From Periplaneta americana (taxonomy: Eukaryota > Arthropoda > Insecta > Blattodea > Blattidae): DNA of 64,000 bases. The notes beneath the pieces are model-generated. The model did not search any database. It saw nothing but the letters and a program-made list of their open reading frames with translations, and had not been told where the DNA came from. Each line of letters starts with the position of its first letter. Position 1 is the first letter of the stretch. This document shows, piece by piece, positions 181 through 61,253 of the stretch. Location: contig NC_091125.1 in NCBI RefSeq assembly GCF_040183065.1, positions 117,972,121-118,036,120 on the forward strand, in the 5' to 3' direction. The position numbers and the translations under genes were made by a program.

Positions 181-3100
181 GTGCGTAAGACTGAAATCCA
201 CAGTTTAGACATGCATATTCTGTGACATTTTCTGTATAAGGAGAATTTGTATATTGATTGTCTTTAGTTCAATGGCTAAGTATAAGAACATAAATATCGG
301 TTAACTATCTCAGCAGTATCTGTTAGTGCATGAGCATTTCTTGCTGTTGGGTGTAGATGTTCAATGATGTTGCCATGCTTGCAGACAGACTCACTGCAGC
401 GAGTGAGTTCAAACCAAGTCCACCATCTGCTGCCACATGTTCCACAAAAGTTCTACAGACTTGGCCAGTCCCAGAAGCCTGCACAGCTGCTTGCCATGGT
501 GAAGCAAGATGTTGGTAGGAAACATCCCATCATTATCTTCAGGTGATTATAAATTTATAAGCTTTGTAATAAGCTCAGTGTTGGTTATGAAATTACGAAG
601 TATTCTAGAGAGTTCTGATATTATACTCGGTAGTGGTATTTGTCTTTGAACTTGTGTATCATTAGTTCGAGTCTTGTTGAGACTGATGTATTTTCGAATG
701 AAAAGATCCTAATCTTCCTGCAGCAGGGAGTAAAAGCTGGAAGTTGAAATGGAGCTTCCAGGCTAAGATGCCATGGTCTACTGGTGAAGATATTCCCAGA
801 TGTTTCATCTACTACTGCGACAGACATCTTCAGTGGTGAGGTATCCTAGATCTGAGTCTTCTGCTAGGGGTACCTGTGGCAACTGATACCCTGACTGTTT
901 GCTTGTCCTTATTTATAGAGCCAGGGATTGGCCTTGGTGTTTAGTAGACGAAACATCTGGGAATATCTTCACCAGTAGACCATGGCATCTTAGCCTGAAA
1001 GCACAGTCTACTATATACAGTCGCGAAACTCAACACGTAGTAAATATGCAAACATTAGATAGTTGCTCACCACTAGGATCGCTAATATCGCCTCATTACA
1101 GGCAATGCAAAATAGTACCATCACAGTCTATTGTTTCTAGCACCCTCAAAACCCAAGCTTCGTGACTATATAGTAGACTGTGCTGAAAGCTTCATTTCAA
1201 TTAGACACTGGCCGTGAAAGCCTACATGCTAAAAGCTGGAAGCTCTATTTCATATGCAGTCATTAGCATATGAAAGAATATTATGACATTAAACTGATTA
1301 ATGTTGTCATCAATATGATCACACCTTAGGTCAGCCCCAGGCACATACCTCAATTGAGTCACTGTTGGCTACCCTCATGTTTTGGTCTGATATGAGTAGA
1401 CAGTCTGATAAGCGTTGCTCATTGATGGATTGTATATCATCATAGAAAATCGATTGTGCTACAATTTCCACAAGGTGTAAGAAATACAATAATTTTTGCG
1501 TTCAGAAAGGACACCATAACACAGATATGTGATATACAAATCTATAAACTAAGCCTATAACAAATTTAAATTTAAGAGGGCATTTTAAGCTGTATTATTC
1601 TACAATAATAATTATCAAATCTTATGCAGAGACATAGGAACAGAAGATGGGAAAGATTGGAGAATGCTGGGTTTGCAGTGAAATATCTGCCCTTGGGCAG
1701 AACACTATGAATGAATGATTTTCTTTAGGAAGAAACGAATAGCACAGCTAGAATAGCTAAAACATTTAAATGATCATATGATCGAAGAGCACAGGTGAGT
1801 CAGTGGGAAACAAAAGTCAGGGATCAAGAATCAGAAAGTTTCACATGAAATCTAGAGAAGGTGAAAAAAACGGGCAGAGAAGACGAGAAGATTCGCCAAG
1901 GAGGAGAGAAGAGGAGATTTTGCTCTCAGTGTCAAATAGCAGTTCTTTATTTCTGATAGAAAAGAACAGTAGCTGGAAAAGCTTAAATTTGAGAAGTTAG
2001 TGGACTGAAAAACAGAAATGTGAAGGTCTACTATGACTAAAATGTAAAATTGTTTGATAATAAAAATATATCATATAAGGGACGATAAGCTTCTCAAATT
2101 TTATAGCAAATTCTGACAAATATAAAGCCCTAATGTGAGCTGTGAGTTAAAAAGTGCCCCATTGTAGCAGCCTACGAAATACACCCTGAGAAATTCAATT
2201 TATTTAACATCATAAGTCTTTCTCGACATATAGTAACGAAGAAATGTGTTTTGATATTGAAAATCAATTAGGAATTAAAATAAAAATTGTCTTTGTGGTT
2301 TTTGTTTGCATTAGATGAAAGCATTTATGATATGTTAGTTATTTATTAGAGGGTTTGATTTTAATTTCAATATATTGGATCTCATGAAATTCATTCAAGC
2401 CTGATTTCCATCTAGTTCGACTTCTCAAACTTTCACTGACATTTTATGAACTAACAGAAAATGCTGTCAAGAAATGACTTTCATACTCCATCAGCATATC
2501 TACCGTGCTATCAAAAAGGAGTGTATTATATGGCAGTAAACATTTTAATAGCCCCCCTATGGATATCAAAAAAATCAAACTCAAAAAACGAGATTATTTA
2601 GGCCCAAATTAAAGAAGTACCTAATTTCTTACGCCTTCTATTCTGTAGGTAAATTTATGACATTCAGCAACACAGCATGAATATTTCTGTCTTGTATTAA
2701 GTATCGATACTAATCCCTTGTGTTGTACTAGTATATTGTAAAACTCCTCTGTATATATTTTAACTAGACTGTGACTATAATTAAGACCTTGTAGTACTGT
2801 TAAGATTTTTTGACATATTCCATATTCTAGCTGTGAAGCTATGTATGAATACCATGGATTGTAAATAAATACAATACAATAGGGCATCTTCAGAAATAGT
2901 GGCGACTAATCCTTCAGTAAAGAGCTATCCAAAATTGTTTTGGTCTACCCAGCTTTTAAATTGTTTGTGACCCACTAGCTGTGTCAAAAATCTAAATCAT
3001 TTGTGATAGTGGTATCCTTTGTAGATGCTTTATAATGAGGGGCCTAGAACAAAAAGCAGGTAAGTGACATTATTAAAAAAAATGAGGTAAGTGCATGTTG

Positions 3101-4960
3101 TGATAGCCGAAAAGGATGTTTCTTTGGGATAAAATCAGGTAAGTGATCACACTGTGCAGTGCTGCTACATGGGCATCATTTCACCAAACTAGTGTATAAT
3201 ATTCCATTGCATGTAGAACTTTAACTGTAATTTCCTCAAAAACTAGGTTTCTGTCACTTACCTGCTTTTTGTTCTAAGCCCCTCAATTATGTTTTGTGTT
3301 TTGGAGATTTATTGTATCCGAGTTTTTCTAAAATCTGTTCTGCTTTTTTGTGAGAGATCTGTGCAGTTTTATAATATATTGGTCAAGAGACCAATGAAAC
3401 CTGTGAGAAACAGTTGTCCGATAATTCTGCCTGGTTAGATTTCTTGTAAGGTAAAGGTAAAGTTATCCCTGTGGAGGCTCACAGCATAGTTGGAAATTAG
3501 GGTTCCACCTTTGCAAACAGTAGTAGCAGGATGGATATTGATCTTATGTGCTTGCTGCTTTTACCACCAAGGTATTAATTTATGGTCCCCAGGGCCCTAA
3601 TGGAGCTGGAAAGATTAAGTCAATTAGAAAAACCCATGACACCATTAGGAAAATAACCCGCGACCATCAGTGTAGTGTTAATTACTATGCTACTATGCAT
3701 CACATGTGACCTTTGGTTTTGCTTCATTTCTGAAAAAGCCTTGGTAACGATTTTTATTGTGCTTTAAACATCTGTCTGGGTTTGAATCTACGAACTTAAG
3801 ATCCTGTGTTTAAACATACAGAATCATTACCATTAAACAGAAGGTTGTACATTAATAAATCTTTTTGAGGATATTTTATTAACTTATCTACATTTAAAAT
3901 TAATATCTTAAAAGCTAAGATGCCATTGTGCGATGTCATTTTTCTGTCACAGCAACAAGTCGTCGACATGTGACTGGATCTCCATGTTCCTGAACGAGAA
4001 TGGAGTGAAATGTACGAATCTCAATGGAAGTATGCCACTTGCTGTTCGAGAGGGCAAACTGAAAGCATTCCAGACAGGGGAGATGGATGTTTTGTCATGT
4101 ACAGATATTGGTTCCAGAGGCATCAACACAATCAGGGTGATTACTTTCATATTCATGAAATCCAGTGACCTGATGGTTTCTTCTTAGCAATTCATTGGGT
4201 GGCACTGATTATATATAACCTTTATTATAATCTTTCATTATTTTCATACATTTATTGCTCGTCGTAATTACATTGTTTTAGAATAGCCTCAGTAGTACAA
4301 TGAGTCCATTGCTCAGACATCTTTAACAGCAGATAACCAACACTGATAATCCAAATACGTTTCTTTTTATAATTTTTAACAGATTTGTAGAAGACTGCAG
4401 AATTTATCTATTCATCTGTATGATTGAAGGATTAGAAACTGACGTAGTCTCATAGAGACAGTCTGTGAGATAGAAAATCTAGACAAAGAAATGGCTAATA
4501 ACTTTGCTGAAAGCCTCTCATCCAGAAACAATTTTCGTGTATGTCGTAAATACGTTTCACATGTTACATTTACAAAGGAAACCATGATAAGAATTTTCTA
4601 CCTTTAGATATTCACAATCATTGGTTGTGTTTGAACTCACCAACTTTTGAGCAAACAGATAAAAATGTTAACATTAAACCAAGTACAGTCTTAAGAGTTC
4701 AATTCACTTCATTGGTAGTGTGACAGACTGCAGATTGAAAAAGCCTGGACTTAAGGGACTTCTTATCTAATCACATTTTCCAGAATTATCTTCAAAAGTC
4801 TATTCTAACTCCTATAACATTAAATAAAGGGAAATATCGTATTCAAAGCAAAATTTGTATTAATAACACTTTAATTGAACGTAAAAGAGTCGACTCGTTT
4901 AGTTTTATCTGATACACAAAATACTGCTAGGTGTTTAATGATGGTTATGTAGGATGCTAC

Positions 4961-32860: not shown

Positions 32861-34832
32861 TTTCGTTTTACACCACTTTATTTTGCAATGGTTGATCTTT
32901 ATATTGGCTTGTAAACAATATAAAACAATTAGTATCACGAAACGTTGAATTTAAATGTGGTACTTAATTGTCACTCCGGAGAAAGTCGTACAGGATTTTA
33001 TCGTCCTTGATCGTCTTCTAATCCGCGAACCTCTGATAAAGCTGCCAGCCTGCTGTTTGTGAGACAACCGAGGACGACTCCGGTGATATTTATTTCAGTT
33101 TATTTTTAGTTCTTCTCATAGGTAAACCCCGGTGAATGGTTTTGAGGAATTAGCGATTCAGAGGATTAACATCTGTGGCCGGGAGGAAAAAGGTCTTAAG
33201 TAAAAATCTTATACTTTTCAGGAGAGCAGTAGGAAGATTGAAATTGGTGTCAATTATAGAGTTTTTTTTAATTACGAGGTTTTTCCTGATTATTATTTGT
33301 TTATATTTTTTCTAAAATGGGTAATGTTGCTCATTTAACAATTTTCTTGATTATTTAAAAAAAAATAGTCGCACTTAAGCCTTTTTAAGACTAGAACCCA
33401 AACTGAGTAGAAGGGAATATGTAAACATAAGACCTTTTTCATGTCAAAATAAATGAGAAATGTAAATTATTAGGAATGCAAAATGGGTCTTAAACAATTA
33501 TAGGACTGTTTACCCTGGTGCTTAAACTTTTAAAAGGAAAGGGCATCAGTATGTGATAAAATGGCTAAAATACAAGTTAGACCTTTTTAATAGGGAAGTA
33601 TGGAAAGTAAACATGTGATGGTTTGTAAGGAATAAAGTATTAAATATTCTTAAGTTCTTTATTTTGTGTGTGCTCGATTCAAAAAGTACTTAGGACATTT
33701 GGTAACGCTCTATAAATCCAGTCAGGAGTCTTTTTGACTTTAACCGTTTTACCAGATTGTAGAGAATTGTTTCTGCTTTCAGAATATATAAAAGTCTCAT
33801 TTTCACAATAACATCTTTTTCCTCCCGGCCAATGGTAAAAAATGTTGTACAGTTTTTTTTTTTCTTGCTCGTGCTCAGGACTGTGTTAACCTCCGGAAAA
33901 CATGGACGCACGCAGGGTGATATTTCGCACGTACCGCAGTCTCCCTGTTTTTCACTCTTAAGATAAATGTAATATAATTGGTCAGTTTAGTGCTGCTTAT
34001 GATTAGGTTTTCTCCGGAGCGGTTGTTTGTGCGCTTTCAATCGGAGACCTCCGGTTACCTCCGATTGATGCCGCGCAGGTTGTATATGTGCTGTGGCGCA
34101 GACACACACTTCCCGCTGAGCATTCCTTTAATCGGATCAGGTAGCGATTCGAGTCCGCTGACGTCCGCGTATCTTTTAAAATAAGTTGTAATTTGTTGTT
34201 TATTCTCTCTTTTATGTTAATCTCTCTCTCTTTCTTCGGCTCTTTTTTTTCTTGTGTTGCTTAAAGTGCTACGTTAGCTGACAGATTTTTTTCTAGTTTT
34301 GAAATTCATAGTATATGTGGAAAGGCGTATTAGTTTTATGTCATTGATCAAATTAATAACATTCAATCTAACTGCAAAACTAACGCAGAAGTAAAGCTTT
34401 TCAGTAGCTAATGTAAACATTTATACTTTAGTTTTCCTAGAAACTCTCCTTTAATCGCAAACAGTGTTTGTCATTTATTATTCTAATCGGTTTAGTTTAA
34501 CGTAAAATATATTACGGGAGCTTCAGAATGGAACAAAAGAATCTTGGGCTATCGATGGGATAAAGTTTACTGTTCAACATAATTTATTCAGATTCTTCAC
34601 CGAACAGGATTGTGATTATTGTGTTAAAGGGTGTCAGCATTTGAACTGCCTCTTCTAAAACGCGCCACTCTTGCTCTAATATAAGCGGATATCAACTTAA
34701 GGATAATTGTAATTATATTATTACCACATGTTTCTTTAGTTTCATTCAGAAACTCAATATTTTAATCCAAACAGTAAAATATAACTCAAGTTGTCTAAAC
34801 ATCAAAATATAACTCAAGTCGTCTTGTAAATA
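32861..34832. other. Unassigned sequence left of the transposon nest
   Basis: A GGCCGGGAGGAAAAAG motif at 33177 and its complement ending at 33830 are the only inverted pair. A CpG-rich patch (33960-34190) contains the short hairpin CAATCGGAG/CTCCGATTG and a donor-like CAG|GTAGCG at 34139-34140. No gene recognised. Confidence 0.4.
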
Positions 34833-35075
34833 CACTCAGGGACAAAAAAAACCCGGACACTTCTATATTTGCTTGTATTTTGTTGCCAATTATTTCAAAA
34901 TGAAACAAAACCCATTTAAACAAAATAATGTTTCATTTAGCACCTTATACGACAACATTTGAAAAAAAAACTCTGATGAGAAAATTTACAAAAAATTACA
35001 AAGGGCGTATAACTAGGGCATCGTTTGGTCTAACTGTTTTTCATTTTCTGGTGCCTTAAACGTTAAAAACTCTTT

Positions 35076-36088
35076 TTAGTAACGGGTATTACCCCCTCTG
35101 GCTTGAATAACTGCATCCATACGTCTTGGCATGCTCTCAATTTGGTTAGCAATGTCTTCTTGAGGAATAAGTTCCCATTCTTCGCCAAGTGCTCGCCTCA
35201 ACTCTTGTAACGATTCTGGTCTCGGTCGTCTATTCTTAACACGCCGTCCCAGCATGCCCCACACGTGTTCAATTGGGTTCATGTCTGGATTCCTTGCTGG
35301 CCATGGAAAAAAATGGATTCCCACTTCTTGGAGATAATCTCCGACCGCATGGGCAATATGCGGCGGTGCATTATCATGCATTAAAACAAAATTATCGCCT
35401 ACAAATTGGCCAAATGGCACAACATGATCAGCCAAACATTCATTTATATACCTATCAGCTGTTAGTCTTTCATTTTCAACAAAAACCAACTCTGTACGAG
35501 CATCCGCACACACTCCTGCCCAAACCATCACTCCACCACCTCCATACGGCACATTTTCGGAAATGCAACACTGTGAAAATCGTTCTCCCTCCTTCTCCAA
35601 ACTCTTTCACGTCCATCAGGTGAGCACAGATTGAAACGGGACTCATCGGTGAACAGAACACTGCTCCACTGTCCATTTCTCCAGTCCCTGTGATCATTTG
35701 CAAAACGCAGTCGTTAAACTCGATGCATCCTGAGAAGTCTGGGACCAGTTGCAGGTCTACTTGATACCAGTCCACTTGCTTTCAACCTCCTTCTAACTGT
35801 TTTGGCCGAAATTGGGCGTCCATGCATGTTAACAAATTACTGGGCTACACTAGTAGCTGGCAGGTTGCGCTCCCTAAGAACTCTCAACACCATATACCTG
35901 TCTTCATTTGGATTTGTAGCTCTTGGACGACCCGAACCTGGTCTTCTGGTATATTCTAGGGTCTCTCTATACCCTTTTATGGCATCATGGGTTGTGCTTC
36001 TAGCCATATTCATAACATTTGCAATGTAACGTACACTGCGTCCATCATCGTAAAGGGCTACAGCTCGAGTCACATCTTCAGGTCGCAT
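35076..36088 (-). pseudogene. Transposase of Tc1-like element A (broken)
   Basis: From ATG at 36088 the N-terminal helix-turn-helix reads VALYDDGRSVRYIANVMNMA, then GSGRPRATN. The catalytic triad is present: DESRF, MHDNAPPH, and NPDMNPIEHVWG with 34 residues between D2 and E (DD34E). The gene is broken by in-frame TAA at 35837-35839 and 35714-35716 and a one-base frameshift near 35590. It ends TRY-stop at 35076. The piggyBac insertion lies 7 bp upstream of its start codon. Confidence 0.9.
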
Positions 36089-36639
36089 CTTGTTTTAACC
36101 CATATTATCCCGGTGATGCGTTTTCGCAACATTTTACTTCTTTGCTATTAAACGTGTGTGAAATATGGTTTTTAGTATTTGTTAAGTTTATGGCACATAT
36201 TATCTATTATACTGATGTTGGTAGACCTGGTTTATTGAAAACATTTGGTAACTGATTCATTGTTGGCGCAATACTTGAGAAGAAAAGAAGTGATTATTAC
36301 AAGTGTTGAAATGTTTGCAGACTGTCATAAATGAATGCAATTTTTGTTTATTTTTATAATTTCATTATACCTTTTCTTGTATATATTACAATCTAAAGAC
36401 TCTTAGGACACGTCTTGTAAAAGTAGCTGGACATTGCATGAAACGTTACTTCTGTAATGTATGCCTGAATGTTGGTGTTGCGTTTTTGCAACACCGGGCA
36501 CATGGAATATCAAAACTGTCTTTCTGAGATTAGTGAAATAATTACATATATTTACTTATGGAATTCGATTTTTCGCATGAAATAGTTATTCTATTCATGT
36601 TTTATATACAAGGGGCCTGAGTGAACATGAAATAATGAC

Positions 36640-37735
36640 AATCATGGAAGAGAACCAAAAATTCAGGCAGATTTTACAGATGTTTTTATATCTCCACCGG
36701 AAGCTAGAAGTGATATCGATGAAGACAGTGCTGACGAGGACTTCGATGGAAACATAAATAATCTAAATTGTCATCAACTGGGGGCCGAAGGGATAATGGT
36801 CCTCATTAGATGGAAATATATATATATAATAATATAAAATCAGGCACAGAATGAATAGATGCTAGAAGGTGCAGAAATACGTGAAATATCAGAGCCTGTC
36901 AGGGGATAAAGTGACTATTGTAAGAAAATGGAAAAAGAGTGATTTACCAAGTTACTGTTCACTGAAAAGAAAAGTAAATGAGGAACTTGAAAATTGTGAG
37001 TCGAATCCCAACATGAAAAGAACTTATTGCCAATTGATGTTTTTCAATTATTTTTCCATGAAAATTTTGTACTTGATATTGTAAACCAAAGTGTTGCGTA
37101 TGCGGTGCAGAAAGGCAGGGATAAATTTATTTTTTCCCCAAATGATTTCAAAACATTCCTTGGGATTCTTTTTGTAAGTGGATATACTAAAGTCCCACGC
37201 TGTCGAATATACTGGGAAGAGAGCAGCGACACAAGAAATGATTCAATTTAGTCAGAGCTATGAGACGCAATAGATTTGATGAAATAATAAGAAACCTTCA
37301 TCTAAATGGCAACACACAACTTGACAAGAGCGATAGGTTGTCTAAGGTGAGGCCCTTTCTAGATGAACTTATGTGAGAAAGTGAACTTTGTAGCCAAACC
37401 TAATTCGCTTTCCTCGCATAAATTGTTTTAGCATATGTCTTCCAAAATAAAGTATCATAGCCTCGTCAATACTGGATTTATTGTCTCACAGTGTTGCCTA
37501 CTGTATGCATAATTTTCATTTTCCTCATTTAATGAAATGCACTGAACGTTGTAGATATATTCACAGAAATAAGTATGAGCCTTACAGGGACAGAAGTGTC
37601 CACTAACAAATCTGGCTGATATGAAGAAAACAGAGAGGTTCCTTTGATATGAAGTACGATGAAAGTTCTAAATTACTGATATGTCGCTGGAATGACAATT
37701 CTGTCGTGACTGTTGTGTCAAACTGAACGATGTCT
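36640..37735 (+). pseudogene. piggyBac-type transposase remnant
   Basis: Pieces across frames: an acidic N-terminal region FISPPEARSDIDEDSADEDF; then QLFFHENFVLDIVNQSVAYA, FSPNDFKTFLGILFVSGYTK and IYWEESSDTRND; then RRNRFDEIIRNLHLNGNTQL. After a gap of about 200 bp come SFDMKYDESSKLLICRWNDN and SVVTVVSN. Most of the catalytic aspartate region between those parts is deleted, and frameshifts occur near 36950-37050 and 37248. It is a dead, internally deleted gene. Confidence 0.82.
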
Positions 37736-38305
37736 AAAATGTGACATTGCTTTGCATTATAAATGCTTCCAAGAATTTCATTTTCAGGAATAATGTTTCT
37801 AACGATGTAAATAATATAAACTTTTCAAGGTGTTGCTTGCAAAGAATTTACTTTTCAAAAATAATGTCTCTAATGATGTAAAATGTTAATTTTTCATGTT
37901 GTTGCTTTCAATGTTAAATATTTCCAAGATTTTTTTTTTTTTCAGAAATAATGAGATAAAATGAAAACTTTTCATCTTGTTTCTTCCAATGTTAAATATT
38001 TTCAAGAATTTAATTTTCAGAAATAATGTCTCAGATCATGTAAAATACATTCTGTGCATGGTAATAAAGTAGGTTAGGTCAAAATATGTCGTCTTGTTTA
38101 ATTATTAATTCATCATATTAAAAACACAATGTGAGTAATAATTGCTACCCTATGTGCCCGGTGATGCGTTTTCGCAACACATCATATCTCAGGAACTAGA
38201 AATGCGATAACAAAAATTTCTGAAAATTCTACGTTCATAAATGCTAATGCATTCAGGAATTCAATTTTATTAAATTTGAAAACAAAAAATTATTCTGGGC
38301 ATATA

Positions 38306-40313
38306 CAGTGCCTACCAAAAGTTTAAGACCACCTTGTGACGTGATATATTTTTGAATGTGAACAAACTAATTCTAATAATTTTCACAAAATAACCACTTT
38401 AATACAAAAATTATACTATTATTTATTGTTACTGTAAGTTTCATCAAGGTCATTAATGTTTTAGCTAATACTTTACACATTTAATTAAAGAATGTCACTG
38501 AAGTAAAAAAAGTGAAAATCATGTGCTAGACAGGTATTTTTTTCTTTACTTCGCAAGCTGCACATGAAAACGTTAATAGTCAATAGGTCCACCCTTATGC
38601 TTTAAACACATTTGCACACGTTTTCTCATACTTTGCACCAACTTCTGACATTCTTCGGGGGTAACTTCGTTCCAGACCTCGGAGATTTTTTCTCGAAGTT
38701 CCTGGACATTCCTTGGCTGGCGGGACGCTACACGAAGGCCTATGATATTCCACAGGTTCTCAATAGGGTTCAGGTCCGGACTCCTTGCTGGCCAAGGCAA
38801 CAATGGAATGCCCTTCCTTTCGAACCAAGCCATTGTTGCTGCTGACTTGTGGCAAGGCGCGTTGTCCTGCTGAAATACGAAGTACCCGTTGTGCAGCTTC
38901 TGGGCGGATGGGAGCATATTGTCTTTCATTGTCTCAATATATTCTTGCGAATCCATTGAGCCATCAATGAACCTTAAAATTCCTGTCCCTGCAGCAGACA
39001 TGCAGCCCCAGATCATGACGGAGCTTCCTCCCCCCTGGACTGCTGGTACGAGGCATTCGGGAAGAAATTTTTCCGTTGGTGTCCTTCGGACTCTCACTTT
39101 TCGCGAACTATACAGAACAAATCGCGATTCATCGCTGAACATCACCTTACCCCAATGTTCCATATACCAGTTCTTCCTGGTTTTACACCAGTTCCTTCGA
39201 TTCCTCTTGTGAGTGTTATTTAACAGTGGCTTTTTAAGAGGAACGTAGGACTGAAGACCAGCTTCTCCCAGGCGACGTGAAATGGTCATTTTTGACACCT
39301 TTTTATGTGTAGTATCTTCAAATTCCCTCATTATACCTGGAAAAAGAAATTGGCATACAGTATAACATTACTCCTTTCTTTTGCCTAGAAAACCTAGAAT
39401 ACTGCCCTAGTGGTTCTTGTCAATGGACGGACCTGGCTTCAGGCAGAACACTAAACAAACAAATAATAGTACGTACCTGGAAGGGATGCTTTCCGGTTCC
39501 TCTTCGCCACTCGAGCGATGATCCGGTCCTCGCGTAAGGAAGTTACCCTGGGACGGCCGCTGCGTGGTTTATCAACCACTTCACCTTGCTCGTGAAATTT
39601 TTTAATTGTGTTAGTCACGCAAGTTTTACTAACATTTAACGCTGCAGCAATTTCTCTATGAGACTTACTGCACCTATCCATACCAATTATTTGCCATTTT
39701 AAGGCCTCGGTCACAGATTTTCTCCCCATTGTTACCTAGCTCAGTACTGTAAACAACCTGCTTCTCACACAATGTGAAGGAAACTGGTTACAAGTCAAAA
39801 CATGATGTTCTTAGACATATTTTGTTATGCGACATCTCTTCAGCGAAATCTGAACTATCGAATGGTGCAAGAACGGTAACGCTAGCTCAATCGATTTAAA
39901 AGATATTAATATCTGAAGATCTCTCACTTTTAGCTACCTTTTTCTTATTTTGCAAAAGTGCAAAAAAAATTATAAAATACCGAGAAAATTTTTGGGATTT
40001 TTTTCCTTGCGCCAAAACGTTCCTGTACATTCTCCAATACTATAGAAAAATCAGTACTGAAATGACGCAATTCGTTTAGTGTCCACAAATGAATCTGTAA
40101 CTAAAATTGATGCATTTTTTTAATTACATATTTTTATTTAAAAAATCATATCTTACAAACGAAATGTCGTATCCCAATATTTTTTGCACAAATAGATGTC
40201 TAAGAACGTATATTATTTAAACAAAATTCCAGGAAAGATTTGTAACAAAAATATAAGACCAGGAACTGTTTACATGAAATTAGCTGGTGGTCTTAAACTT
40301 TTGGTAGGCACTG
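38306..40313 (-). mobile_element. Tc1-like element B, apparently intact, nested in piggyBac
   Basis: The 28-bp terminal repeats are identical, starting CAGTGCCTACCAAAAGTTTA and continuing AGACCACC. TA lies at 38304-38305 and 40314-40315. The element is 2,008 bp and encodes a complete transposase once a 140-bp intron is removed. It sits a few bases from the right terminus of the piggyBac-like element. It is the youngest layer by position, and its perfect TIRs and open gene agree. Confidence 0.93.
38573..39729 (-). CDS. Tc1-like transposase (element B), two exons, DD34E
   Basis: Exon 1 is 39729-39477 and exon 2 is 39336-38573 on the minus strand: 1,017 nt, 338 residues plus TAA, the usual Tc1-like length. 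The N terminus has MGRKSVTEALKWQIIGMD and the helix-turn-helix HREIAAALNVSKTCVTNTIK, then an AT-hook-like SGRPRV. The second DNA-binding unit is KKVSKMTISRRLGEAGLQSY. Catalysis: D1 in FSDESRF, D2 in QQDNAPCHKS, E in SPDLNPIENLW, with 34 residues between D2 and E. It acts in the nucleus as a cut-and-paste transposase on TA targets. The intron is CCAG|GTACGT to TTTTTCCAG|GTAT and rejoins LPG-IMREFEDTT in frame. No stop or frameshift was seen. Confidence 0.9.
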
Positions 40314-40613
40314 TATGGGTTAAGACAAATGTTACAACCCCACTTAAACTCAGAATATGTAAAAATAAAGAAATAACGAATGATTACGATAATGAAGCAC
40401 AAAATGGTTTAGACAAAATTGTTATAGCTGAGACTCCGAAAGCAAAATTGGAATATTTGGTTGTAATGGCTTGTTTATAAAACAAAAAACAATCAACAAT
40501 ATATACACGTCTCCATAACAACAGATGGCTACCATAATATTGTATGAGAAGATAATGTTTTGCAAAATACCAGCAAATATTAAAGTGTCCGGTTTTTTTT
40601 GTCCCTGAGTGTA

Positions 40614-42183
40614 TTTCATATGTTTTTATTGCCTCGAAAGTTACGTTTTAGAGAAATTTCAAGACTTTTACCTATACTGTGGGCCTTTGGGAACAATAGC
40701 ACTAAAACAATTTAAAAAGAAATCGTATCAAATGTTTTGCGTAATTGTTTTCATAAAGTTCGCGATTGTGCGATCATTTCAAATGGTCTAACAAATTCGA
40801 AGTTCCACCACCATTAGAGTAAATTCGCCCACGAAGTTTACGGTGTGCGACTTTATTATTACCTTCAACTAAATTAAAGAATTTCCATGCGACGGATATC
40901 CGATTTCGTGCCATTTTATTCCACTCACAACTACCGTCAGTCCGTACGCGCCGGCCGTCCTTGAGCTAACTGTCGCTTCGCTCCGAACCACCGCATCCCT
41001 CTGTATGTGCCCTGTTCCACCTACGGTAGTACCGGAGATCACCGGTGGAGAGCTTTATTCGTAATCTCCGATTCCTCCGCGGTAGTAGTCACTCCGATGA
41101 GCAGCACTGGGTCAGTTTGTATGCTTGTTGATTGAGAGTAAGAGGCAGAACCTCGCACAAAACAGCCATACCGCCAGACGAGTCTAACCAGCGTATTATA
41201 TGCTTGTACTGTAACACAAAATAATATTTTTTTCCCCAAAGGGTTCCATAGCACTGCTTTTATTTGTAGAAGTGCATTTATGTGGGACAATGAGCGAATC
41301 TGAAATTTCTTCGTTTGTGTTCATTTTGTTGGCAACAAACCATATTTGCCTTATATTGAATATTTTTTGTTTTTGTAGCTGTATCTATACTTGTAGTCTA
41401 ACACCCGAAGTCTTTTCTTCCCGCGCTGAGCTGTGTAAAGTATTGCTAGTGGATGCAAAATTGAGAACACATGACTTTACTTCTTCGGCATTGTCACATT
41501 CACTTTATTGGTTTTTTATTGATCTGTCATGAATTGAGAGATACATGCAAATCGTATCGACATCTTTACTGGAGGTTAAAAACATTATGGGAATGAACCG
41601 TGGCTACTTTCTTAAGCAATGAGCTTAGTTCTGTCGTCGATTTGCAAAAGGGGACATCTACAAAATTACAAAGTGTTGGAAAATCGCAAAAACTATAACC
41701 AAGTTAAATTAAAATGTTCATATATTTTTTTCTAATTAGATCACTATGGATACATACATTCAGGATTCATTATCATTTTGGTTTTTTAAGTCTGTTATGG
41801 TTTTTTTGTTGCGATTTTACACGTCTGAGGACGCCTTGTTAGGGTACGGTGGTATGTGATAAAGTCGCTATAATATGTGTACGACTGTATTACATAATAT
41901 GTAGTCTTTTGCGACATCTTAAAATATTTTTTATCGTTGAGAGAAGCTTGGTATAATGTCCAGTTAGAAAACTGATTATAAATCTGTTCATTCACTATAG
42001 CTCTACGCGATTGGATTGACAGACGAATAGAATCGCGGGCACGAACAGGACGTGTGTTTACGAAAGCAACATCGTGCCGTAACCATGGTAACGTGTGTTG
42101 ATTGCAAAGTTGATAAGCAGAAAAGAAAAATATGTTACTATGGAATAAACACGAGCCTTCTTTTTGACGTAGCTAGTGGGAAA
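40614..42183. other. Unassigned sequence right of the nest
   Basis: A CpG-rich patch at 40890-41170 (GTCCGTACGCGCCGGCCGTC) has no identified function. Short frames at 41039-41532 have no domain. No gene supported. Confidence 0.45.
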
Positions 42184-45929: not shown

Positions 45930-47642
45930 CTTACTTACTGGCTTTTAAGGAACCCGGAGGTTCATTGCCGCCCTCACATAAGCCCGCCATTGGTCCCTAT
46001 CCTGAGCAAGATTAATCCAGTCTACCATCATATCCCACCTCCCTCAAATCCATTTTAATATTATCTTCCCACCTACGTCTCGGCCTCCCCAAAGGTCTTT
46101 TTCCCTCCGGCCTTCCAACTAACACTCTATATGCATTTCTGGATTCGCCCATACGTGCTACATGCCCTGCCCATCTCAAACGTTTGGATTTTATGTTTCT
46201 AATTATGACAGGTGAAGAATACAATGTGTGCAGGTCTGCGTTGTGTAACTTTCTCCATTCTCTTGTAACTTCATCCCTCTCAGCCCCAAATATTTTCCTA
46301 AGAACCTTATTCTCAAACACCCTTAATCTCTGTTCCACTCTCAAAGTGAGAGTCCAAGTTTCACAACCATACAGAACAACCGGTAATATAACTGTTTTAT
46401 AAATTCTAACTTTCAGATTTTTTGACAGAAGACTAGATGACAAAAGCTTCTCAACCGAATAATAACACGCATTTCCCATATTTATTCTGCGTTTAATTTC
46501 CTCCCGAGTGTCATTTATATTTGTTACTGTTGCTCCAAGATATTTGAATTTTTCCACCTCTTCGAAAGATAAATCTCCAATTTTTATAGTTCCATTTCGT
46601 ACAATATTCTGGTCACGAGACATAATCATATACTTAGTCTTTTCGGGATGTACTTCCAACCCTATCGCTTTACTTGCTTCAACTAGAATTTCCGCGTTTT
46701 CCCTAATCGTTTGTGGATTTTCTCCTAACATATTCACATCATCCGCATAGACAAGAAACTGATGTAACCCATTCAACTCCAAACCCTGTATATTATCCTG
46801 AACTTTCCTAATGGCATATTCTAGAGCGAAGTTAAAAAGTAAAGGTGATAGTGCATCTCCCTGCTTTAGCCCGCAGTGAATTAAAAAAAAAAACATCAGA
46901 TAGAAATTGGCCTATACGGACTCTGCTGTAAGTTTCACTAAGACACATTTTAATTAATCGAACTAGTTTCTTGGGAATACCAAATTCAATAAGAATATTA
47001 TATAAAACTTCTCTTTTAACCGAGTCATACGCCTTTTTGAAATCTATGAATAACTGATGTACTGAACCCTTATACTTCCATTTTTTCTCCAATATCTGTC
47101 AAATACCAAAAATCTGATCAATAGTCGATCTATTACGCCTAAAACCACACTGATGATCCCCAATAATTTCATCTACATATGGAGTTAATCTTCTCAAAAG
47201 GATATTCAACAAAATTTTGTACGTCAACAAAAGTGATATTCCTCGAAAGTTACTACAGTTAGTCTTGTCCCCCTTCTTAAAAATAGGTACGATTATGGAC
47301 TCCTTCCATTGTTCTGGTACAATTTCCTTTTCCCAAATTGCAAGTACAAGTTTATAAATTTCGCTAGATAATGCCCTTCCACCCTCTTGTATTAATTCTG
47401 CTGGAATTTGATCAATACCTGGAGACTTGTACTTTTTCAGATTTTCTATCGCAATTTCGACTTCAGAAAGTGTGGGTTCCGGTATGAATGGCTCAGCAGT
47501 TTGTATTTGAATTTCGTCCTGATCATTTCTATTTGGCCTATGTATATTTAGTAGTTGCCCAAAATAGTTTTTCCATCTATTCAGGATTGAATCAGAGTCT
47601 GTAAGTAAGTCACCATTCTCATCCTTGAGTGTACTATCTATC
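45930..47642 (-). pseudogene. LINE reverse transcriptase, 5'-truncated and frameshifted
   Basis: On the minus strand, in order: DENGDLLTDSDSILNRWKNY, KYKSPGIDQIPAELIQEGG and WKESIIVPIFKKG; then QLFIDFKKAYDSVKREVLYN (RT motif with catalytic D); then [31 protein letters not shown] (catalytic YADD), [18 protein letters not shown] and [20 protein letters not shown]. After a shift comes [20 protein letters not shown], ending LRVP-stop at 45945. Frameshifts lie near 47260, in a poly(A) run near 46885, and near 46015. The endonuclease domain is missing. The tail is AGTAAGTAAG. It is a non-LTR element; the clade is not assigned. Confidence 0.9.
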
Positions 47643-59890: not shown

Positions 59891-61253
59891 CTTTTCTTAT
59901 TTTTTCCCTAAAAGTATCCCATTTCATATAAACATTTTCAACACAACAATTTCAATTAACTTAATCTTCTTCTAATTATTAAAACATAAAGGAAAACATT
60001 TCATTTCTAATACGAACAGAAATATTCTGACACTTTTTGAAAACAAAGAATACTATTTCAGCTCGTTATTATTAGTACATTGTAGGACTACCCTTCTGTT
60101 TAATAACCTCTTTCAGTCGGTGTGGCATCCTATATACTAATTTTTTTGTTATGTCTATAGGAATTTTCACCCATTCTTTTTGAAGTCTTGCTTTTAGTTC
60201 TTCTTTAGAAGAAATAGGCATTGATCCAACCCTCCTGTTAAGTTCTTCCCATAAATGTTCAATAGGGTTCAAATCCGGCGATTGTGGAGGAGGATGAAGC
60301 ACCTTAGGGCATTTGTAGAGCAGAAATTCTTGTACAATATAGGAGTTATGCTTGGGATCGTTGTTCTGGTAAAACATAAATTCCTTTTAATTCCAAGCTT
60401 TTCTGCACTTTTCACTAAATTATGTTGCAGGAGATGTAGATAGTCTTCCTTCTTCATGAGATCCTCGATGAACAGCAATTCACCAACCCCAGAAGCTGAC
60501 AAGCACCCCCATATCATCACATTTCCTCTACCATATTTAACAGTAGCTCGCAAATTCTTGGTTTTCATTTCCTCCTTAGGCTTTCTCCTGACCATTTGTC
60601 TACCATCGTTGCCAAAAACATTGAATTTGCTCTCATAAAAAAGAGCCTTTTCCCACCAATATTCGCCTTTACTTTCATATTCTTTAGCAAACTGAAGTCG
60701 TTTACGTCTGTTCCTTTCACAAACATAAGGCTTTTTTCATGCTATTGTTCCGTTGTAGCCCCGTTTATGTATTGCCCTCTTAATTGTTTGGGCATGCACT
60801 TTTTTACCCGTAGCCGATTCAATTTCAGAAGCTAACTTCGGGGCACTTATACGAGGATTCTTTTTAATCTGTCTGATAATAATAGATTCTTCTCTGTCTG
60901 TGAGGACTTTTCGGCGACCTGTTTGCTTTCTCAGCTTTATTCTGTCCTCGTTTTTATATCTGGGAATTATGTCAGACACTGTACTTCTCTTCATCTGAAG
61001 TAAATCTGCAATGTTTCGAATGGTTTTCCCTTTTTCGTGATGGAATATCACTAACTGCCTCTGATTAAATATATTTTGCTTACCTTTACGCCCCATTTTA
61101 TGTTCCGTCTTGCTGAAACGACAGCACAAGTAAGACTAAGACTCTCGCATATTATTGAAACTCGGTACCTCCACCTACTTTGTAATGTAAGTGATTAACA
61201 GGGGTGTATAGAATAGGTACAACAGGACTGTCAGAATATTTTTGTTACGCAGC
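59784..61253 (-). mobile_element. Tc1-like element C, dead
   Basis: The left end is CAGTGAGTAACAAAAATATT after TA at 59782-59783. The right end, read inward, gives GCGTAACAAAAATATTCTGA, with the outermost bases decayed. Size, about 1.47 kb, fits a Tc1-like element. A (TA)n tract is at 59827-59888. It contains a broken minus-strand transposase. Confidence 0.82.
60072..61096 (-). pseudogene. Transposase of Tc1-like element C (broken, catalytic residues lost)
   Basis: From MGRKGKQNIF at 61096 come the helix-turn-helix KGKTIRNIADLLQMKRSTVS and TGRRKVLTDREE. An in-frame TGA follows GYNGTIA. Then FAKEYESKGEYWW and ALFYESKFN: the first catalytic D (normally DESKF) is Y or lost. A frameshift follows GIKRN. 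YQNNDPKH has N where the second catalytic D stands. SPDLNPIEHLWEE keeps the glutamate at the 34-residue spacing. It could not catalyse transposition even if the frame were open. Confidence 0.88.

Follow-up and report, generated by a model that had tools for sequence, protein, structure and literature searches.

In which order did the transposons that lie one inside another at a single place in the Periplaneta americana genome insert there, does the decay of each layer measure the time that it has spent in place, and how did the innermost of them come by an insert that reads as an intron? These questions are raised by a window of 64,000 nt (positions 117,972,121 to 118,036,120 of contig NC_091125.1, assembly GCF_040183065.1), the whole stretch of DNA that was analyzed. 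A preliminary description had recognized a complete three-level nest, with a Tc1-like element (B) inside a piggyBac-like element inside another Tc1-like element (A). Its coordinates proved exact, its TA, TTAA and TA target duplications are matched, and the duplications and the ends bear out that A inserted before piggyBac and piggyBac before B. The stack is nevertheless larger than described, as a further outer level, the hAT-like element D, encloses A. Four different cut-and-paste transposons are thus stacked in the order D > A > piggyBac-like > B (Table 1), and we put the probability of this nest and insertion order at about 0.9.

D was found by a genome search with the 687 bases to the right of A, where a repeat starts at A's edge. 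It is a high-copy element with at least 39 matches besides the window: the best 40 of 1,600 first-look candidates include the window itself, and the others are 95-96% identical over about 490-510 bases. For comparison we used the window and five other copies (L035-L039; L numbers denote compared places in the genome). The two flanks of A in the window adjoin in all five, which led us to reject a stack of three levels and provides real empty sites on which closure of D around A is seen. In four of these copies the two flank matches share exactly the 2 bases of the TA, and a single TA is likewise aligned there in L036. Target duplications are matched at all four levels (8 bp, TA, TTAA and TA); that of D is exact in five of the six copies, including the window, and agrees at 7/8 bases in L037 (by eye). 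D's outer flanks had no match in the 36 other loci compared. No open reading frame (ORF) of at least 150 aa and no transposase was seen in D, and it would therefore have been moved by a transposase from elsewhere.

The two ends of A align over 50 columns with three substitutions and one gap. Its transposase matches PF13358 (DDE_3; E 6.6e-13) above the cut-off and two helix-turn-helix (HTH) profiles, PF13551 (E 2.3e-5) and PF01498 (E 1.3e-5), below their curated cut-offs. A thus has the TA duplication and terminal inverted repeats (TIRs) as well as the DDE_3 and HTH domains of Tc1/mariner elements, and it may once have been autonomous. The two stops and the frameshift ascribed to it were recovered in the reading frames of its transposase, at 35837-35839 and 35714-35716 and between about 35528 and 35606, respectively.

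In the piggyBac-like copy about half of the 349 positions of the DDE_Tnp_1_7 profile are unmatched, in line with the internal deletion reported before. Deletion alone does not describe this copy, since one core piece (profile positions 128-162), which would include the stretch around the first catalytic aspartate, sits on the opposite strand; a merely deleted element was ruled out on this ground. The rearrangement was likely caused by aberrant repair after excision, with template switching, and a copy already rearranged when it moved was probably mobilized by the transposase of another element. A PDB search with one piggyBac piece gave no match. Once B is removed, the right end would read TTAA-CCCATATATG, and the two ends agree at their first 7 positions and at 11/15 overall (by eye, in one copy). 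Because B sits within this right terminal repeat, the piggyBac copy is very likely locked in place.

The proposed history would run in four steps. D would have inserted in the germ line, duplicating 8 bp; A would then have entered at a TA within D, the piggyBac-like copy at a TTAA 6 bp upstream of A's start codon and B, last, at a TA within the right terminal repeat of piggyBac. Some points weigh against this history. Closure of A around piggyBac and of piggyBac around B is read from the duplications and ends; among the 36 other loci no second copy of A or piggyBac was found, the sole match being between B copies and a stretch of about 70 bp in the DDE region of A. Beyond B, the right end of piggyBac consists of just TA-TGGG and the TTAA. 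D is called hAT-like from its 8-bp duplication and the form of its ends, which we presume to be that of hAT elements, and the superfamily is unproven. An assembly join inside the nest had been named as what could overturn it, and a stack created by assembly is a negligible prospect in our view: nothing was seen that speaks for it, the window is free of N throughout, all four duplications match, and the available text on the P. americana assembly describes it as long-read with a contig N50 of 42.4 Mb (PMC12774602). The same text gives a size of 3.23 Gb in 91 scaffolds, nearly all of it in 17 chromosome-scale ones, and a repeat content of 65.86%, so that nests can be expected to be common in this genome. 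Every layer is ordinary cut-and-paste transposition, and the nest adds one more example to a kind that is common.

Table 1. Features of the nest and other elements in the window (window coordinates; a dot marks features given without strand).
Feature	Position	Strand	Remarks
8-bp target duplication, left of D	33980..33987	.	GGTCAGTT
D, hAT-like element	33988..41109	.	1,341 bp without insert; ends TAGTGCTGC / GCAGCACTG; outermost level found
8-bp target duplication, right of D	41110..41117	.	GGTCAGTT
TA target site, left of A	34831..34832	.	single TA at the same place in empty-site loci
A, Tc1-like, DD34E transposase	34833..40611	-	frame broken by two stops and one frameshift
TA target site, right of A	40612..40613	.	
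A transposase remains, in pieces	35076..36094	-	HTH and DDE_3 matches
TTAA target site, left of piggyBac	36095..36098	.	6 bp upstream of A's ATG
piggyBac-like element	36099..40319	+	deleted and rearranged
TTAA target site, right of piggyBac	40320..40323	.	
piggyBac transposase piece	37000-37251	+	DDE_Tnp_1_7 positions 2-72, E 2.8e-12
piggyBac transposase piece	37257-37373	+	DDE_Tnp_1_7 positions 76-114, E 4.7e-7
piggyBac core piece, opposite strand	37372-37485	-	DDE_Tnp_1_7 positions 128-162, E 1.6e-5, above curated cut-off
piggyBac piece, weak	37634-37723	+	DDE_Tnp_1_7 positions 252-279, E 0.16, below cut-off
Four degenerate 65-nt tandem repeat copies	37747-38044	.	spaced 71-84 nt; at the expected place of the 3' coding remainder
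TA target site, left of B	38304..38305	.	
B, Tc1-like, inside piggyBac's right terminal repeat	38306..40313	-	identical 28-bp TIRs
TA target site, right of B	40314..40315	.	
B transposase, predicted exon 1	39477..39729	-	253 nt from ATG
B, predicted intron, 140 nt	39337..39476	-	GTACGT...TTTTTCCAG; direct repeat TTCCAGGTA at both borders
B transposase, predicted exon 2	38573..39336	-	Tc3_2 HTH and DDE_3 domains
Reverse transcriptase pieces (RVT_1)	46012-46911, 47099-47641	-	second below cut-off
Tc1-like transposase remnant	60269-60736	-	weak HTH_Tnp_Tc3_2 match, E 0.0085

The decay of the layers had been taken to fit their order, and as a clock it does not hold. The window's D differs from the family majority at 26 of 1,310 columns (1.98%), counting columns in which at least four of the five other copies agree, and each of those copies lies 2.05-2.52% from the majority of the rest. 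As A, piggyBac and B all lie inside D, they are younger than its insertion, and their entries would all fall into a short interval, at less than about 2% divergence, a figure drawn from few copies. B's own tip on the tree of related copies described below measures 0.0027 changes per column. With D this close to its family, little time was left for A and piggyBac to degrade at this site, and the stops and the rearrangement cannot be taken simply as signs of old age; both may have appeared fast, or they may predate insertion. Decay in place in proportion to age appears doubtful to us. The states do fall in the right order, with A broken, piggyBac rearranged and B open if spliced, yet the oldest element at this place is the one that stands just 1.98% from its majority, and such gross rearrangement is commonly seen in copies that had become defective before moving.

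B had been described as intact with identical TIRs. The 28-bp TIRs are indeed identical, whereas the reading frame is intact only if 140 nt with GT-AG borders are spliced out as an intron: unspliced, the frame stops after 92 residues, and without the 140 nt it encodes 338 aa. The insert has a length that is no multiple of three, contains stops in the incoming frame and carries the marks of an intron, with GT-AG borders, a pyrimidine-rich 3' end (GTACGT...TTTCTTTTTCCAG) and a frame restored by its removal. The predicted protein matches PF01498 and PF13358 above cut-off and has 34 residues between the second D and the E (by eye). B looks autonomous if spliced, and transposase production from it would need splicing by the host.

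The subfamily of B is recently active. Two near-full copies, with 98.96% (L002) and 98.5% (L003) identity to B, lie in unrelated places, where the 28-bp ends recur and each copy has a TA of its own. L002 differs from B at six coding positions, all synonymous, and encodes a protein identical to B's 338 aa; L003 has nine synonymous differences, one non-synonymous difference and one stop. Among B, L002 and L003, 12 of the 14 distinct coding differences (three of them shared; hand count) are synonymous. Under neutrality the synonymous fraction would be 0.22 without weighting and 0.27 with transition weighting, and against the latter value the excess has a P of about 7e-6 if the changes are treated as independent.

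All five subfamily copies that cover the site carry the 140 nt (B, L002, L003, L004 and L026, with L005 being the same place as L026), whereas 14 relatives from this genome span the site in the alignment and lack it, namely L009-L015 (83-85% identity, internally deleted) and L016-L022 (72-75%). A maximum-likelihood tree with 25 rows was computed with the intron columns left out and was rooted at the midpoint. On it, presence and absence change once, on a branch with support 95/96; six rows whose matches fall short of the site (L006, L007, L008, L023, L024 and L025) have no intron state. A genome search for the intron sequence, which skips common words, gave five places, each occupied by one of these copies of B's subfamily, and no multi-copy source. 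The intron folds no better than shuffled sequences (z 0.34). A 9-bp direct repeat, TTCCAGGTA, spans both intron borders. A 9-bp target duplication at the intron was considered and rejected, as in most relatives CTTCCA, or a sequence close to it, precedes ACA, GCA or GAA rather than GGT, and CCAGGTA occurs only in L010.

Splicing is the simplest reading of the insert, because all five copies share it and coding constraint persisted after their common ancestor. With the intronless 72-75% group taken as outside, parsimony favors gain, and the intron was probably gained in B's subfamily rather than lost elsewhere. We therefore favor, with some reserve, an intron born in a mobile element: gained once in a Tc1-like subfamily, spliced, maintained under selection and spread by transposition, with intronless sisters kept in the same genome. 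It is unlikely, by comparison, that the 140 nt are a gene-killing insertion that is not spliced, with the subfamily spread by the transposase of intact relatives. Such a course would agree with the 14 intronless relatives that align across the site, with the stops in L003 and L004 and with the presence in the same genome of L016, a relative that lacks the intron and has a long open frame. An insert shared by 5/5 copies predates their split, yet the later differences among B, L002 and L003 are mostly synonymous, as expected of a translated protein; moreover, the splice signals appear canonical, joining the exons gives an exact frame and the intronless relatives align across the join. Lower still do we rate an ancestral intron that was lost in the relatives. 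It finds a parallel in Minos, a Tc1-like element for which the available text reports a 60-bp intron (PMC2874221), the likeness being one of presence alone; with both the sister and the outer groups intronless under the midpoint root, it takes at least two losses in place of one gain.

Several observations count against a spliced intron gained once. The splicing of B's 140 nt is predicted from sequence features, and the intronless group L009-L015 consists of deletion derivatives, among which one extra base occurs at the site in L010 and small gaps occur at or near it in L012 and L014. The intron-bearing side of the tree includes three partial copies that stop short of the site (L006, L007 and L025). 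L003 is broken by its stop codon, and L004 resembles a pseudogene, with 12 synonymous and 16 non-synonymous differences, one stop and two gapped codons.

Additionally, some observations were made on relatives of B. L009-L015 share a deletion in exon 2 and form, together with L008, a star-like group on the tree. L016 (C1:26765600-26768000), an intronless Tc1-like relative, has an open stretch of 373 codons that crosses the intron site. L026, a B copy on C5, is split by a 1.65-kb insert (1923-3576) with inverted edges TGTAGGGCCGCG / CGCGGCCCTACA and thus represents another nest. L027 (109-1048) and L028 (154-1101) contain near-perfect palindromes of about 940-950 bp over their full length (97.4% and 94.7%), whose ends are about 70% like B's right end, with TA at both edges of L027; six further places have the same paired matches, and one more (C11:4071312) has a single match. 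Two TIR patterns and two protein scans against viral contigs gave no match, which is uninformative for an insect genome.

Taken together, the nest allows four transposon families of a large insect genome to be placed in relative order, and the many copies of D set an upper age bound for everything inside it. The decay of nested elements need not measure their time in place. The nest is ordinary biology, and the part of the locus worth following is the intron of B's subfamily, a probable recent intron gain for which the intronless state is still present in related copies. Among the titles listed for nested Tc1/piggyBac insertions and for Tc1 introns or intron gain, there was no published account of this nest or of B's intron.

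Compared with known systems, D resembles non-autonomous hAT elements in its 8-bp duplication, its short terminal repeats of the TAG/CAGTGCTGC form and its many copies, and it differs from hAT elements in that neither a long ORF nor a transposase was seen in it. An 8-bp target is also given for the hAT element Tol2 in the available part of PMC2874221. The piggyBac-like copy shares with its superfamily the TTAA target, the CCC/GGG ends and the DDE_Tnp_1_7 pieces (three above cut-off, one weak), and departs from it in the inverted core piece and the unmatched half of the profile. With introners (PMC9860276), B's intron has in common that it would be a recent gain, and it has a short direct repeat at its borders; unlike them, it occurs in one transposon subfamily only, with no multi-copy source found. 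A and B both correspond to the Tc1/mariner DD34E elements of the Sleeping Beauty type in their TA duplication, their HTH and DDE_3 matches and the 34-residue spacing between D and E, and exon 2 of B matches SB100X over 221 residues. Tc1/mariner genes are usually intronless, although not strictly so, as Minos illustrates, whereas that of B would contain an intron of 140 nt. The Tc1-like transposase gene of Minos, from Drosophila hydei, likewise comprises two exons and a short intron, as far as the available text goes (PMC2874221); Minos combines 254-bp TIRs, a 60-bp intron and a DD34D motif, and B 28-bp TIRs, a predicted intron of 140 nt and DD34E.

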